Shown piece by piece: positions 26,101 through 41,030 of a DNA stretch of 64,000 nt. Origin of the DNA: Rhizobium phaseoli (GTDB lineage: Bacteria > Pseudomonadota > Alphaproteobacteria > Rhizobiales > Rhizobiaceae); the NCBI RefSeq assembly GCF_010668805.1, contig NZ_WUFT01000018.1, positions 1 through 64,000 on the forward strand, in the 5' to 3' direction. A program made the position numbers and the translations under genes. Below the pieces are notes generated by a model that saw only the letters and a program-made list of their open reading frames with translations, ran no database searches and was not told where the DNA came from. The number at the start of each line of letters is the position of its first letter. Position 1 is the stretch's first letter.

Positions 26101-27097
26101 TGGCGGCGAGCAGGCTGCCCATAGACTGCAGGGCGTTGTCCGATCGTTCCAAAATCGTCGCGGCGCGTGTGTCGATCAGCGAGGCGAAGGCTTCGCCCGA
26201 TGTGGAGAGCCGCACCGCGATCTCTTCGGTCGCAAGCGACAGCTCTTCCTTCAGCTGGTCGTGGACGCTGCCGATCGAGGTGCGGATGCGGTCGGCATGG
26301 TTGACGATCGCCTCGCGCTCGGAGCCCAGTTCGTGGACGAGACCACGGACGCGCAACTCGTTGTCGGCATAGGAACGTTCAAGTGCATTGACTTCGGAAT
26401 GGACGAGCGTTTCCAGCTCGGACGCACGCGCGATGGTGCGCTCGATGCCTTCATTCATCGCCGAGACCTCACGGCGGACGGCCTGGCCGACGGTCATGAT
26501 GCGCTCGGAGGCGATGGTTTCCGGCTCCGCCAGGCGCAATGCCACCTCCGCCATGGAACGGGCGGCGTTGCGCATGTCCTGGGCGCGGGCGATCATGATG
26601 GCGAAAGCATAGAACATCATGACGGGAATGATGATGCCGATGAGGCCGGCGATGACGCCGGGCAGGGCGACGAGATCGGCGAGCGAACGGATCTGCCAGA
26701 TCTGAGGCGCATAAAGCAGCGACATCAGGCCGAGCCCGCCCATGACCCAAAGTACCGAGAAGAGGGTGGCGGTGCGCACCGCCGAGCGGCTGGAGGCGCC
26801 GTCGAAGGATTTCAGGATCGAGGCGGGCGTATTGCGGCTGGCATCGTTTGCGGGCGCGAAGGCCGGCCCCCGGGATGTCTGCTCGCCGGCCCCGGCGCGG
26901 CGGCTACGGCGCTGCGCTTCTTCCTGGGCCTGCTGGTTACGCGCGTTCACTGGATCAGACACATTAGCCTCCGGGGCCTCAGGCGCGTCGCCGCGGCGAG
27001 ACGGCACGTTATCTTTGCCGAAGTCGATCTGGAGCGCCTCGTCCAATGCCTTGAACGCCTTGTCCTCAACCGACTCGTTATATTTGTTGTTCGCCAT
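20180..27097 (-). CDS. gpr: Giant polar growth protein, GPR/RgsE family (apolipoprotein-like)
   Basis: 2305 residues. A charged N-terminus is followed by two membrane helices (~109-130 and ~144-170). Then comes a very long Ala/Glu/Leu-rich helical region made of 11-residue-based apolipoprotein-like repeats, including about nine near-identical 44-residue units at ~690-1100. A Gln/Pro-rich linker (~2070-2180) and a conserved last ~110 residues (DLWRRYQRGERDVFTRRLYTLKGQQTFDEI) complete it. This matches the Growth Pole Ring protein of Agrobacterium tumefaciens (about 2115 residues) and RgsE of Sinorhizobium meliloti, which form a ring at the growing pole and are needed for unipolar growth and rod shape. 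The name rests on architecture and recall, not on an alignment. The upstream region carries CtrA-type boxes. Confidence 0.85.
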   Translation of the reverse strand: MANNKYNESVEDKAFKALDEALQIDFGKDNVPSRRGDAPEAPEANVSDPVNARNQQAQEEAQRRSRRAGAGEQTSRGPAFAPANDASRNTPASILKSFDGASSRSAVRTATLFSVLWVMGGLGLMSLLYAPQIWQIRSLADLVALPGVIAGLIGIIIPVMMFYAFAIMIARAQDMRNAARSMAEVALRLAEPETIASERIMTVGQAVRREVSAMNEGIERTIARASELETLVHSEVNALERSYADNELRVRGLVHELGSEREAIVNHADRIRTSIGSVHDQLKEELSLATEEIAVRLSTSGEAFASLIDTRAATILERSDNALQSMGSLLAAKTDSLLQTLNASGFALATEFDSRLEALSVNLNDHGERLLSQFETRASTMDSSTEKLNAALNERTHQLSEILIARTREINESLKSGERTIGGTLDDVLSKLNSALDEKGASFRQSLQTTADDAVMDLDVRSGFFEERLQTTVAQLSTAFDERVAEFTSAFDKRTGSLDTKLMESLARINETLTGGSDSIDGILSSGIDRLGLSMTDQSLALATTLATSHEVLESTLGTRADEITAALSSRTGELTSALQSATSEIALTLASGTSELQNNLQTRTAEFRDTLRTTTTDLTTAVAAGTEQVTAAFGGRAEELSGALAARAAEISEALGTAHGRIDSVMAERGGALVEALTTHHGRFEEALTTRSDAIINAVSGTHERLAETLDEKAMALAISLNESQARIEDTLETRSEALLSAVSGTHDRLSETLDEKAMALAISLNENQSRLEDTLETRSAALLNAVSGTHDRLSETLDSKAAALTTSLDERSARIEGALGTRAEALLNAVSGTHERLSETLDGKAAAFATALSEGQARIAETLETRSAALLNAVSGTHDRLSETLDEKAMTLAISLNESQSRIEDTLEARSEAFLKAVSGTHDRLSETLDQKSAAIAASLNEGQSRLQDTLESRSESFLTAVSATHDRLSETLDDRAMALAISLNESQSRLEETLTSGADAIINAVSGTHEGVNGVLDQKAAALATSLNEGQARLEEALGHRTAAIIGAVTATHDRLTDTLDEKTMALAISLDDNQSRFDSVLEARSNAIMEAVSGAESRVAGAFTDKTDAIRAAYTDNQQRLENALSEHSAALSGVLDAGGARFEDLVGGLTGRIEGRLTDAHVRLGGLADEAAARIEGGLTSAHERIRTTLEDRANAIDLSLNQAHALINDTLTEHATSIGTSVATSVSMLEMSLEDREASIRQAIDASAQTLEDRMHAGAGQIASRFQEAATAISSSTQNFSAHLDQSVESLTGRVEETGSRVEAGLAAIETRIRDGVGGVAEKVEAASGHLSGVLSDGISRIGTLSDDAAQRISATLQGSAANLTQAIDSRTANLAETLDSRATTLTGAIDGRTVTLGETLDRGNERIEERLSTMDRALTVGLEAVNRTIEGKAVGLASTLRSAVAEAAQGMEGEATRTTELLGKTGQQFAVDLNAKSDEFTRTMDERSSQIVTRVAEAQSRLASQAAAVAQTFSEAGNAIVNKVAEAETIVGTQVNAISKALSDAGQSLETRGDAIRSTLSGAGSEISATMADVDRALEARSSAIRSNLEAHAREIDTTFSEIDRALEARGNSIRSTLDERTRDLNSMLSGRTVELTRILDETARPLIDRYTDAGEQAAARITAAANLSADRLRTENEALASAVAARTENVANAVSAIENSLVGNVNGLVERMAESSAAMAMMMNRAAEQLTSVDGRLGDTTTRFAESANRAAEMVSASTRLLEGKVDRLSDISGQTLSQVGGIIGRFDEHSKVLTQASQLLGAAQSNLASTLEERESALQTLSVGLVQRSAEIEKTMLGLGGMIETVFERAEQRSSQVTGNLRQGVQSSFADIGRILTETEKRAQEAAETMREAITRAGDEANTTIDGTFANVERRSGDLSNRIRGGLTASLSEVERMLGEAGRASDGAAQNMREALREAIDDAVGRFSGATDDIRRSAADIRNELDATRAELKRGAFDLPEEAKESASAMRRAVAEQIKALQDISQLVGRSSQQLEISEPVARTLAQAQPAPRAAQPVATRPVASQPIISQPVISQPVAAQAPQPAAPAPIEATGLRGTIAPAAAAAPQRATAQPAVLRQDTGRQDTGRQEPAPPEGGGWISDLLRGASREEAADEASARAPARPAETAAPAARSNDSRNPRHVVESLNSLSVDIARAIDHDASVDLWRRYQRGERDVFTRRLYTLKGQQTFDEIKRKYDREPEFRTAVDRYIGDFEKLLADVARTDPNRTVTQSYLTSDTGKVYTMLAHAAGRLS
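23805..25020 (-). repeat. 132-bp tandem repeats inside gpr
   Basis: About nine direct repeats of 132 bp encode 44-residue units of the form AVSGTHDRLSETLDEKAMAL followed by AISLNESQSRLEDTLETRSEALLN. Neighbouring copies differ at scattered sites, and DNA identity is highest around 24450-24900. The unit equals four 11-residue helical turns. Confidence 0.85.
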
Positions 27098-27376
27098 TGG
27101 TTACGCCTCGTTACTGTCGGCCGGTCTGGCAGCGCATCCCGGGCTTCCGCCTCACCCGGGGAACAACTTTGCCGTTCCAGCCTTCCATCCCAACGACGGA
27201 CGGATTAAGCATGTCATTTCAGAGTAGATAGCCGCTTTTTCAAACGGAAGGTATCAAAACACTACCATTATCCACTCACTCGGCAAAGGCGCGTACCATA
27301 AACCCGCCCCACCAGTATCGTAGTGACACATCTGGGCTCTTCACACAATTAATGAAGGCTTGAGATTTGAGGCTCA

Positions 27377-27391
27377 TTAACCTGTTGTTAA
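27377..27391. promoter_or_regulatory. CtrA-type box, TTAA-N7-TTAA
   Basis: TTAACCTGTTGTTAA is an exact match to the alphaproteobacterial CtrA consensus (two TTAA half sites 7 bp apart). It lies between the divergent gpr and hpt genes, 280 bp from the gpr start and 171 bp from the hpt start. Binding is inferred from the sequence only. Confidence 0.65.
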
Positions 27392-27439
27392 CATCTTTAA
27401 ATCCGTAGCACCGCTTAAAAACCAATAATTTAGCGATAT

Positions 27440-27453
27440 TTAACGGACGTTAA
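27440..27453. promoter_or_regulatory. Second CtrA-like site, TTAA-N6-TTAA
   Basis: TTAACGGACGTTAA, followed by CCAT, contains two half sites 6 bp apart; the second half extends to TTAACCAT, a strong CtrA half-site form. It is 109 bp before the hpt start. The spacing is one base short of the consensus. Confidence 0.45.
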
Positions 27454-27561
27454 CCATGTGGCGAGATTTCCGCCCTGAATGTGCCGGAATTTAACGTGAT
27501 GGCCACCCTCCTGACGCAGAACTGTTGGAACTGCGCACGACACGAGACGGGAGAATTGGCA

Positions 27562-27945
27562 ATGGCAGCTCAGATGGCAGCATTGAACATCGTATTCGAG
27601 GCGCCGGATAATGCAAAGGGACCCTGTCCCTCGAAGGTCCGGCCAATCGATCTGGTTCATCTCGCCAAGCAGACGATGGGCGACAAGACGTTGGAAATCG
27701 AAGTCCTTCAGATGTTTGCGCGCCAGGCTCGCGCATGTCTGCAGGATATTGCGAGCGGCGAAACCATCCGCGTCGGCGCGGCCGCGCATCGCCTGAAGGG
27801 CGCGGCAAGTTCGGTCGGTGCGTTCCGCGTGTCGCAGACGGCTGAGGCCGTCGAGGAAAACGGCGGCGATGCCGGTGCGACGGCAGCGCTTGGTGCCGCC
27901 GTCATCGACGCCGAGAATTTCATCCTGAAGCTCTGCCGCGGCTGA
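27562..27945 (+). CDS. Hpt (histidine phosphotransfer) domain protein
   Basis: 127 residues from the ATG at 27562, preceded by GGGAGA; the frame begins 27 codons earlier without a ribosome site. The Hpt motif is AAHRLKGAASSVGA at about residues 74-87, where the His accepts phosphate in a phosphorelay. The flanking helices (VLQMFARQARACLQDI and VSQTAEAVEENGG) complete a four-helix bundle. It is divergent from gpr, and the shared region carries CtrA-type boxes. Hpt proteins pass phosphate between a hybrid kinase and a response regulator; its partners are not encoded next to it. Confidence 0.85.
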   Translation: MAAQMAALNIVFEAPDNAKGPCPSKVRPIDLVHLAKQTMGDKTLEIEVLQMFARQARACLQDIASGETIRVGAAAHRLKGAASSVGAFRVSQTAEAVEENGGDAGATAALGAAVIDAENFILKLCRG

Positions 27946-28146
27946 TTTCTTTCTCGATACCGTTCAAACGAGGCCCGTTGTTCCATTGCGGAACCACGGG
28001 TCTTTTTGCGACCTGCGGTATGACGCTTTGGAGACGGCGGGCGAAACCCCAATCTGCGAGGCTATGGTGAATTTCCCGATGTTGACTGAAGCGTCGAATT
28101 GTCGGAAGAAAATCCGCCCATCATCTGAAGACCGGAAATAGCCCTG

Positions 28147-28467
28147 ATGCCCAAACTTACCATTGTCGCCTTCGACGGCACGCGCTTCGACCTCGACGTC
28201 GACCAAGGCTCCACCGTGATGGAGAATGCCGTGCGCAATTCGGTGCCCGGCATCGAGGCCGAGTGCGGCGGCGCCTGCGCCTGCGCGACCTGTCATGTCT
28301 ATGTCGACGAGGCATGGACCGAACAGGTCGGCCAGCCCGAAGCGATGGAAGAGGATATGCTCGATTTCGCCTTCGATGTCCGCCCGACCTCGCGGCTGTC
28401 CTGTCAGATCCGCATGAAGGCTGTCTATGACGGTCTCGTGGTCCACGTGCCGGAACGCCAGGCTTAA
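28147..28467 (+). CDS. Adrenodoxin-type [2Fe-2S] ferredoxin
   Basis: 106 residues. The cluster ligands are seen in [15 protein letters not shown] (C-x5-C-x2-C) and the fourth Cys in RLSCQIRM, the pattern of vertebrate-type/ISC ferredoxins. [18 protein letters not shown] is the usual N-terminal beta-grasp. It would carry single electrons in the cytoplasm, for example for Fe-S assembly or a P450-type oxidase. No redox partner gene is adjacent. It lies 200 bp after hpt on the same strand. Confidence 0.93.
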
Positions 28468-38128: not shown

Positions 38129-38429
38129 TCACTCCATTTCACATTTCGGCACATATTGACGACTTTTCCGTTCCTTAGGCAAGGGCCGCCGGTGCTGTCC
38201 AGTCACGGGAGAACGCGATTTCGTGTTTGGCTGCTTGGCGCCCGGCGACCATGGGCTCGGGTGGCCGGGTTGCGCTTCAGGGGCAGATGGCGCTGTTGCC
38301 TGTGAATTCAAGCAGTCTTGCCGGCCAGCGGTGTTTTTGCCGACGCAGCAAATTGCTAAGAAGGAAACAGTGCCTGATTCCCGCTTCGTGTTCGTGCTAC
38401 GAAGCTGGAGGGGCTTATGTGAGGAATAC
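38129..38429. other. Divergent promoter region of the FliO-domain and cckA genes
   Basis: 301 bp. A start-less extension of the cckA frame runs through part of it. No CtrA box of the TTAA-N7-TTAA form and no clear hairpin were seen. Confidence 0.5.
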
Positions 38430-41030
38430 ATGACGAAACCGCGTCAGGCCGACGAGTATAACGCACCGCTTGTGGATCGTGGGGGGCGTTCTGGCACGGT
38501 TTTGCGCATTCTTCTGCTGGCTCTCGTGCTGATCGCAGCCGCCGGCGGCTTTGTCGTCTTCAAAAGCTCGCTCGATAACGAGGTCGTGCTTGGCGGTCTC
38601 GGCGTGCTCGCCATGGTCGGCATCTTTTTCCTGGTCTCCTCGGTCATCGGTTTCATCGAGGTGATGCCGCAGCGCCAGTCCGACAGCCTAGCGCGCGCCT
38701 TCCTCAACAGCCATCCGGACGGCACGCTGATCACCGACGAAAAGGGCCGGATCATCTATGCCAATGCCGCCTATGGCGCGCTGACCGGTGCGCGCAAGGC
38801 GACCGAGGTGCAGACACTGGAAACCCTGCTGTCGCGCCACCGCGAATCGAACGAGGCACTCTACAGGCTGGTCAACGGCCTGCGCGAGGGTAAGGAAGGC
38901 CGGGAGGAATTCCGTCTGTTGCGCGCGGTCGGGCCTGGAAGCAACAGCTCCGGCGCACATTGGTACCGGCTGAAGGCGCGGCTGCTGCAGCCGGAGGAGA
39001 GCGGCGGCAAGCCGCTGCAGATCTGGCAGATCACCGACATCACCACCGAGCGCGACGACCAGGAGCGCTTCTTCAAGGAGTTGCAGAACGCGATCGACTA
39101 TCTCGACCATGCGCCGGCCGGTTTCTTCTCAGCCGGCAGGAAGGGCGAGATTTTCTATCTCAATGCAACACTTGCCGAGTGGCTGAGCCTCGATCTCACC
39201 AAGTTCGTGCCGGGCTCGATGACGATCGGCGACGTGGTGGCGGGCGAGGGACTGGCGCTGATCCAATCGGTGCAGGCCGAACCGGGCCTGAAAAAGACCG
39301 TGACGCTCGATCTCGACCTGCGCAAGACCAATGGCCAGAGCCTGCCGGTGCAGATCATTCACAGTGTCACCTCGATGCGCGACGGCGCACCCGGCGAAAG
39401 CCGGACGATCGTGCTCGGGCGTGAAAAGAGCGAAGCCGGCGGCCAGTCCGCGTCGGCTGCCGCGATGCGGTTCACCCGCTTCTTCAACAACACGCCGATG
39501 GCAATCGCCTCGGTCGACGGCGACGGGCGCATCCTGCGGACCAACGCGCCGTTCCTGAAGCTGTTCTCCAGCGTCGTCTCGCGCGACGATCTCGAAAAGG
39601 CGCCGCATCTCGAAACCATCGTCCAGGAGAGCGACCGGCCACAGCTGGCTGCGGCGCTGGCGGCGGCCAAGGACCGGCAGGGCGACATCGCGCCCCTCGA
39701 TACGCGCACGCCGACCGACGAGGCGCGCTATTTCCGCTTCTATGTCAATGCCGTCATAGACCAGAGCGACGAGGCGCCCGAGGAGGCGGCGATCGTCTAT
39801 GCCGTCGAGGTGACCGAGCAGAAGGCGCTGGAAGCGCAGATGGCCCAGACGCAGAAGATGAATGCTGTCGGCACGCTCGCCGGCGGCATCGCGCATGATT
39901 TCAACAATGTGTTGACGGCCATCCTGCTTTCCTCGGACCATCTGCTGCTGCAGGCGCGGCCGGCCGATGCCAGCTTTGCCGACCTGATGGAAATCAAGCG
40001 CAACGCCAACCGCGCCGCGGTGCTGGTGCGCCAGCTGCTCGCCTTCTCGCGCAAGCAGACGATGCGGCCCTCGGTGCTCAACCTCACCGATGTCGTCGGC
40101 GACCTGCGCATGCTGGTCGACCGGCTGCTCTCCGGCACCAACGTCAAGCTCGACGTGCAATATGGCCGCGACCTTTGGCCTGTCAAAACAGACCTTTCGC
40201 AGTTCGAGCAGGTGCTGATCAATCTCTGCGTCAATGCGCGCGATGCGATGCCCGAGGGCGGCACGCTCACGCTGCGGACCCGAAACCTGACTGCTTCAGA
40301 GGTCTCCGCCTTCAACTATTCCTACATGCCGGCCGAGGACATGGTGCTGATCGAAGTTGCCGATAACGGCACCGGGATCGCGCCTGAGATCATGGACAAG
40401 ATCTTCGAGCCCTTCTTCACTACCAAGGATGTCGGCAAGGGCACGGGACTTGGCCTTGCCATGGTCTACGGTATCGTCAAGCAATCGGGCGGCTACATCC
40501 AGCCGGAATCCGAAGTCGGCAAGGGCACGACCTTCCGGGTCTTCCTGCCGCGCCACATTCCGGAGCCGGTGGTTGCCGGCGAAGCAGGCTCGATCGACAG
40601 CGCCGTCGCCGAGATCGGTATGCGGCCGGAGTCAACGGCGCAGCAGCCGGAGGACCTGACGGGATCGGCGGTCATCCTTCTTGTCGAAGACGAGGAGGCG
40701 GTGCGCCGCGGCGGCAAGCGCATGCTGGAAACCCGCGGTTATACCGTGCACGAGGCGGGATCGGGCGTCGAGGCGCTCAACATCATGGAAGAGCTCGACG
40801 GCAAGGTCGACATCGTCGTTTCCGACGTGGTGATGCCCGAAATGGACGGCCCGACGCTGCTGCGCGAGCTGCGCAAGATCTATCCCGACATGAAATTCAT
40901 CTTCGTCTCGGGCTACGCCGAAGATGCCTTCGCCCGCAACTTGCCGCCCGAGGCAAAATTCGGGTTTTTGCCGAAGCCGTTCTCGTTGAAGCAGCTTGCT
41001 GTTGTGGTGAAGGAGACGCTGGATAGCTGA
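38430..41030 (+). CDS. cckA: Cell-cycle hybrid histidine kinase CckA
   Basis: 866 residues from the ATG at 38430, preceded by GAGGAA; the open frame extends to 38223. Order: two membrane helices (~24-44 and ~53-75), PAS-type domains (first starts [30 protein letters not shown]), HisKA with the phospho-acceptor His in [14 protein letters not shown] (~490), HATPase ([45 protein letters not shown]), and a C-terminal receiver domain with the Asp in [12 protein letters not shown] (~800). CckA phosphorylates CtrA and CpdR through ChpT in alphaproteobacteria and controls the cell cycle. It lies about 11 kb from the gpr-hpt pair, which has CtrA-like boxes. Confidence 0.96.

Follow-up and report, generated by a model that had tools for sequence, protein, structure and literature searches.

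Conserved CtrA-type sites in the shared gap of gpr and hpt suggest cell-cycle control of the pair in Rhizobium phaseoli, more surely of hpt than of gpr

Introduction

In the CckA-ChpT-CtrA relay, the phosphotransfer step involves ChpT, which has the fold of a histidine-kinase-like dimer, and in Caulobacter stalk formation ShpA acts together with ShkA and TacA. How the CtrA circuit starts, stops or places polar growth in rhizobia and their kin is a question to which we know of no answer. The CtrA motifs used for Agrobacterium are TTAA-N7-TTAA and TTAACCAT (PMC11527210), and at Caulobacter podJ a TTAA-N6-TTAA site was also ranked as a full CtrA motif (PMC4287350). Direct CtrA targets described for Sinorhizobium meliloti include flaA, flaB, minCD, pilA1, divJ and ccrM (PMC4433202).

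The growth pole ring protein GPR of Agrobacterium tumefaciens (Atu1348) and RgsE of S. meliloti (SMc00190) belong to a family of very long proteins that carry apolipoprotein-type domains (PMC7327166, PMC8262873). In the open-licence literature we found no CtrA link for GPR or RgsE and no report joining CtrA to gpr/rgsE or to the neighbouring hpt gene described below; the S. meliloti list of 198 CtrA peaks (PMC4433202, S4 Table) lay outside this search, so that the link may already stand there. Here, we describe the region between these two genes in Rhizobium phaseoli, which offers a precise, conserved promoter for testing a CtrA link to polar growth.

Results

The window, i.e., the whole stretch of 64,000 nucleotides analysed here, contains gpr and hpt as divergent neighbours (Table 1). 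With more than 2000 residues and apolipoprotein-type PF01442 repeats over 11 stretches, the predicted gpr product can be likened by size and domains to the likewise very long GPR and RgsE. The start of hpt was placed at the ATG at 27574 from the conservation of the N-terminus (longer mechanical starts lie at 27481 and 27562), and the lengths of the Hpt protein and of the gap in Table 1 follow from this choice.

Table 1. Coordinates of the features in and around the gpr-hpt gap.
Feature	Position	Strand	Basis or remark
gpr (rgsE homologue), growth pole ring protein, 2305 aa	20180-27097	-	PF01442, 4.4e-70
Shared control region of gpr and hpt, 476 bp	27098-27573		divergent arrangement
Second conserved block, TATCGTAGTGACACAT ... 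ACAATT	27316-27350		no known site or promoter recognised
TTAACCTGTTGTTAA, full CtrA-type box TTAA-N7-TTAA, palindromic	27377-27391	+	exact match
TTAACGGACGTTAACCAT, TTAA-N6-TTAA with second arm in TTAACCAT	27440-27457	+	exact match; predicted site
hpt, stand-alone histidine phosphotransfer protein, 123 aa	27574-27945	+	PF01627, 9.6e-10
cckA (context)	38223-41030	+	NF046020, 1467 bits

The Hpt protein has the PF01627 profile, a four-helix bundle in its AlphaFold2 model (pLDDT 85.3) and the phospho-histidine motif. Structure comparison assigned the model to the Hpt fold, with unrelated helical bundles mixed into the match list from rank 23 down, and the phospho-histidine is invariant in an alignment of 32 rows. 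Searched as a loose pattern, the motif recurs in 142 of 145 homologues; by the same pattern it is missing from L112, L116 and L125, which likewise adjoin gpr. The protein resembles Caulobacter crescentus ShpA (PDB 2OOC) and aligns to Pseudomonas aeruginosa HptB at a higher Z (15.3) than to ShpA, and an NCBIfam search for a more specific name gave just weak generic matches. As a canonical Hpt by profile and fold it is not ChpT, which is likewise a phosphotransfer protein.

The divergent arrangement is found throughout the order, in 141 of the 145 loci fetched, in all 83 named loci and in 25 of 28 loci of further families. These adjacency counts apply to the best hpt matches, to which genera other than the own one mostly contributed one or two each, and the motif counts for the gap leave out L029, L030, L038 and L132, where no divergent GPR was found (L030 lies near a contig end). 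An uncharacterised Hpt is thus a nearly constant divergent neighbour of a growth-pole gene across the order and a candidate partner of its product. Outside the order, gpr and a stand-alone ShpA-like hpt are also divergent neighbours in 7 of 28 loci from a class-wide search.

The first-pass annotation had noticed a TTAA-N7-TTAA and a TTAA-N6-TTAA site within 80 bp in the shared upstream region, and both are exact and occur only once in the 64-kb window, at dinucleotide-shuffle expectations of 0.02 and 0.08, respectively. The TTAA-N6-TTAA proper spans 27440-27453, and its second arm begins TTAACCAT at 27450-27457, a known CtrA 8-mer and the best-conserved portion of this second site. The CtrA consensus is therefore present upstream of hpt in both forms, the N7 box and TTAACCAT, at a spacing of 73 bp or about seven helical turns. 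The readings as an RNA element or as a repeat were both rejected: an Rfam search of 26900-28200 gave no match up to E 1, and the gap contains no repeat. Nor do the words reflect a conserved upstream reading frame from the ATG formed after TTAACC, as the base following TTAACCAT is not fixed (A 50, G 25, T 3, C 2 in 80 named loci).

Within the genus, both the N7 box and TTAACCAT stand in the gap of all 31 loci, the own one included. In the alignment of these 31 rows TTAACCAT is invariant, the first arm of the N6 box is 100, 100, 84 and 90% identical, and the N7 arms reach 97-100% per base around seven spacer bases at 29-90%; such invariant arms with a variable spacer are the footprint-like mark of a protein site. 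Among the best 80 named matches (Rhizobium, Metarhizobium, Gellertiella, Shinella, Neorhizobium and others), TTAACCAT is present in all 80 and the N7 box also in 66, with a distance between the two of 73 bp in 63 loci and 72 bp in three.

Beyond these loci, conservation is partial. In other genera of the family TTAACCAT was found in 38 of 89 loci and the N7 box in 12; the 77 loci without the N7 box and the 51 without an exact TTAACCAT count against a CtrA reading. In other families each was found in 6 of 21 loci, and the reversed N7 box and reversed TTAACCAT gave zero and zero hits in the genus, one and one in other genera, and none of either in other families. In Sinorhizobium, one of the relatives in which the first-pass annotation proposed to check both boxes, only the second site persists: TTAATGGCCGTTAACCAT occurs in S. 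meliloti Ak57, where the N7 box is absent, and Sinorhizobium sp. K101 likewise has the second site alone, with both N6 arms retained as in S. meliloti. The other relative proposed, Agrobacterium, did not appear by name among the loci obtained. In S. meliloti, moreover, TTAACCAT lies 242 bp from hpt compared with about 120 bp elsewhere, which also counts against a CtrA reading. Shinella sp. PSBB067 has both the N7 box and TTAACCAT.

The same words emerge without prior choice. In the 62 remoter loci of the family, the top 7-mer is GTTAACC, found in 51 loci compared with 2.6 in shuffles, and GTTAACG is found in 44 compared with 3.2; in the 21 loci of other families the top word is GTTAACG, with 13 compared with 0.7. 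Across 61 family genomes GTTAACC has 18 to 141 occurrences per strand. Any of four CtrA-type words is present in the 450 bp before hpt in 31/31 loci of the genus, 27/27 of the nearest genera and 58/62 of the remoter genera (a split by Hpt identity that was drawn after the search), and in 10/21 and 16/28 loci of two sets of other families. Outside the family the signal thus weakens to roughly half of the loci. Reversed words gave 0, 0, 6, 0 and 3 in these five sets, the alaS control had CtrA-type words in 0 of 30 loci, and among 140 further 450-bp bins from elsewhere in the window one had CtrA-type and seven had reversed words. The sites are thus conserved in relatives beyond background, the N7 box in some of them, with the caveat that relatives do not count as independent cases and that species recur between the 80 named loci and the other genomes counted. 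The cross-genus alignment was anchored on TTAACCAT and therefore provides no evidence for it.

Genome-wide, neither motif is in excess by itself, with 42 N7 sites compared with 59 reversed and 46 occurrences of TTAACCAT compared with 58 reversed; the signal lies in co-occurrence, place and conservation, not in motif number. At 12 of the 46 TTAACCAT sites of the own genome an N7 box lies no more than 100 bp away. The expectation is 0.06 pairs when sites are scattered at random, or 0.45 when all of them are restricted to 13% of the genome, with about 0.66 further pairs expected through a shared arm. The paired places adjoin two flagellins, minC, the pilus gene cpaB of a Flp pilus operon, a protein that matches LapG weakly, a PAS sensor kinase, an FtsK-type protein, a peptidase, an acetyltransferase, an unknown protein, a phosphatase/esterase region and hpt itself. 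Flagellin, min and pilus genes are among the kinds that CtrA targets directly in S. meliloti (PMC4433202). Among 20 proteins examined, plus ctrA, unpaired TTAACCAT also precedes two chemoreceptors, a MotA-like protein and BcsN; some copies precede genes without an evident CtrA link, e.g., alpha-amylases, and count against a CtrA reading.

The composite of an N7 box, 50-64 bp and TTAACCAT was found at 55 places in 39 of 40 genus genomes, compared with none for its reversed form in the 40 genomes. All 38 places at gpr-hpt are 81 bp long (36 matched to the mapped hpt coordinate with the contig not compared, G571 and G572 assigned by sequence and length), and 17 are flagellin-type places of 83-84 bp, of which the own-genome one was confirmed before a flagellin and the others were assigned by sequence likeness, G570 and G222 looking less alike than the rest. 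Widening the spacing to 66-96 bp gave nine places, five of them at gpr-hpt via another N7 box. Over the 50-96 bp covered in relatives, the arrangement thus appears nearly private, within the genus, to gpr-hpt and flagellin-type promoters. In the own genome, the flaA promoter has the composite arrangement of the gpr-hpt gap at 75 bp. Four of the five non-overlapping pairs of this genome (L004, L005, L010 and window 27377-27457) are spaced 73-76 bp start to start.

Of the two flanking genes, hpt starts 124 bp and gpr 353 bp away from TTAACCAT in the window. Over 143 cases TTAACCAT reads toward hpt, with a median distance of 117 bp to the hpt start (5-95%: 109-182) and of 354 bp to gpr. The TTAACCAT copies of ctrA, minC, cpaB and two flagellins in the own genome also read toward their gene, at 45-148 bp. 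Orientation is not strict, since four paired places among the 12 (L006, L008, L009, L010) have the likelier gene on the other side, at 37-79 bp; distance therefore favours hpt, and orientation is the weaker argument. Counting against an hpt-only view, the spacing between TCGTAGTG of the second conserved block and TTAACCAT is nearly fixed (131.8 +/- 0.6 bp; TCGTAGTG is present in 97 of 143 cases), and the distance of TTAACCAT varies less on the gpr side (SD 19) than on the hpt side (SD 31).

The genome has a ctrA gene (425 bits, cut-off 350), itself preceded at 93 bp by TTAACCAT with no N7 partner. As the first-pass annotation stated, cckA is located in the window, and the gene order around it is kept in S. 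meliloti. This nearness carries no information on the regulation of gpr or hpt.

Discussion

The site words in the gpr-hpt gap are identical to those of S. meliloti CtrA target promoters, and within the genus flagellin-type promoters have the same composite, an N7 box and TTAACCAT spaced by 73-75 bp. The gap differs from the S. meliloti target promoters in that its sites sit between two divergent genes, one of them for polar growth. Conservation, the rarity of the composite and the genes at which these motifs recur strongly support CtrA-type control of the gap, and on these comparisons of sequence we regard it as probable that the gap is a CtrA-bound control region with hpt as its main target. 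We infer the following course: CtrA would be phosphorylated through CckA and ChpT, CtrA~P would occupy the full box and TTAACCAT together, and it would most likely switch on hpt at the same cell-cycle time as flaA, while gpr, which is read out of this gap in the other direction, may come under the same control. The initial proposal that both polar growth and a phosphorelay protein belong to the CtrA circuit accordingly divides into two parts of different strength: distance fits hpt better than gpr, so that hpt is likely under CtrA control and the likeliest CtrA target, and for gpr such control is only plausible.

Alternatively, CtrA could control both genes, or mainly gpr, and hence time polar growth directly, which we hold to be possible though somewhat less than probable. 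The gap is common to gpr and hpt in nearly all loci fetched, the block at 27316-27350 keeps its near-fixed spacing to TTAACCAT as if the whole were one two-way unit, and the smaller distance spread toward gpr points the same way. The 353 bp to gpr, however, contrast with the 37-148 bp seen at the comparison genes (paired places and ctrA). In Rhizobium etli, GPR was named among the normally expressed genes upon RdsA depletion (PMC9022086); ctrA was likewise reported there as unchanged, and this study is therefore no test of CtrA acting on gpr. A further option, which we consider unlikely, is that CtrA binds here as a repressor of hpt or gpr, its site lying over a promoter. In Caulobacter, the sign of control is described as set by position, with sites over the -35 element activating and half-sites over the -10 element repressing (PMC4287350), and S. 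meliloti minCD is given as CtrA-repressed (PMC4433202). A search for sigma-70-like promoters in 27080-27600 found none (0.6 expected by chance) and thus no start that would fix the position of the sites, so that this search does not distinguish activation from repression. Activation is favoured by the report that about 86% of the CtrA-dependent genes of S. meliloti fall upon CtrA depletion, and by flaA, which bears the same composite and is an activated, proven CtrA target in that species (PMC4433202).

Far less probable is that these words are selected by a regulator other than CtrA whose motif is similar to, or overlaps with, that of CtrA, e.g., SciP, MucR or GcrA. A Caulobacter SciP ChIP study, as quoted in PMC4287350, gave words resembling CtrA half-sites, but the same article argues for a different SciP motif, and the words conserved here are the exact CtrA words, full and half. 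Chance AT-rich words, for which the lack of a genome-wide excess of either motif alone could be cited, are hardly credible: they are largely ruled out by the conservation across genera, the clean alaS and window-bin controls and the absence of the reversed composite.

With CtrA acting mainly on hpt as the preferred reading, the age and constancy of the gene pair raise a further, rather doubtful idea, namely that the Hpt protein could be a dedicated signalling partner of GPR in a growth-pole phosphorelay module timed by the CtrA composite element. It is the constant neighbourhood from which we infer that the Hpt might serve GPR. If this were true, one CtrA switch would set both motility and new-pole growth.

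In the own genome, TTAACCAT additionally precedes genes for an M23 peptidase (L347:128-1447), an L,D-transpeptidase (L369:838-1452) and an RlpA-like protein (L349:380-1492), which are possible further CtrA-controlled cell-wall genes. Among the records compared, CP090106.1 (PLSDB; L276) is titled as S. meliloti pSymB; as it carries petA, recA, alaS, dksA and a cckA-like gene, it looks like a chromosome instead.
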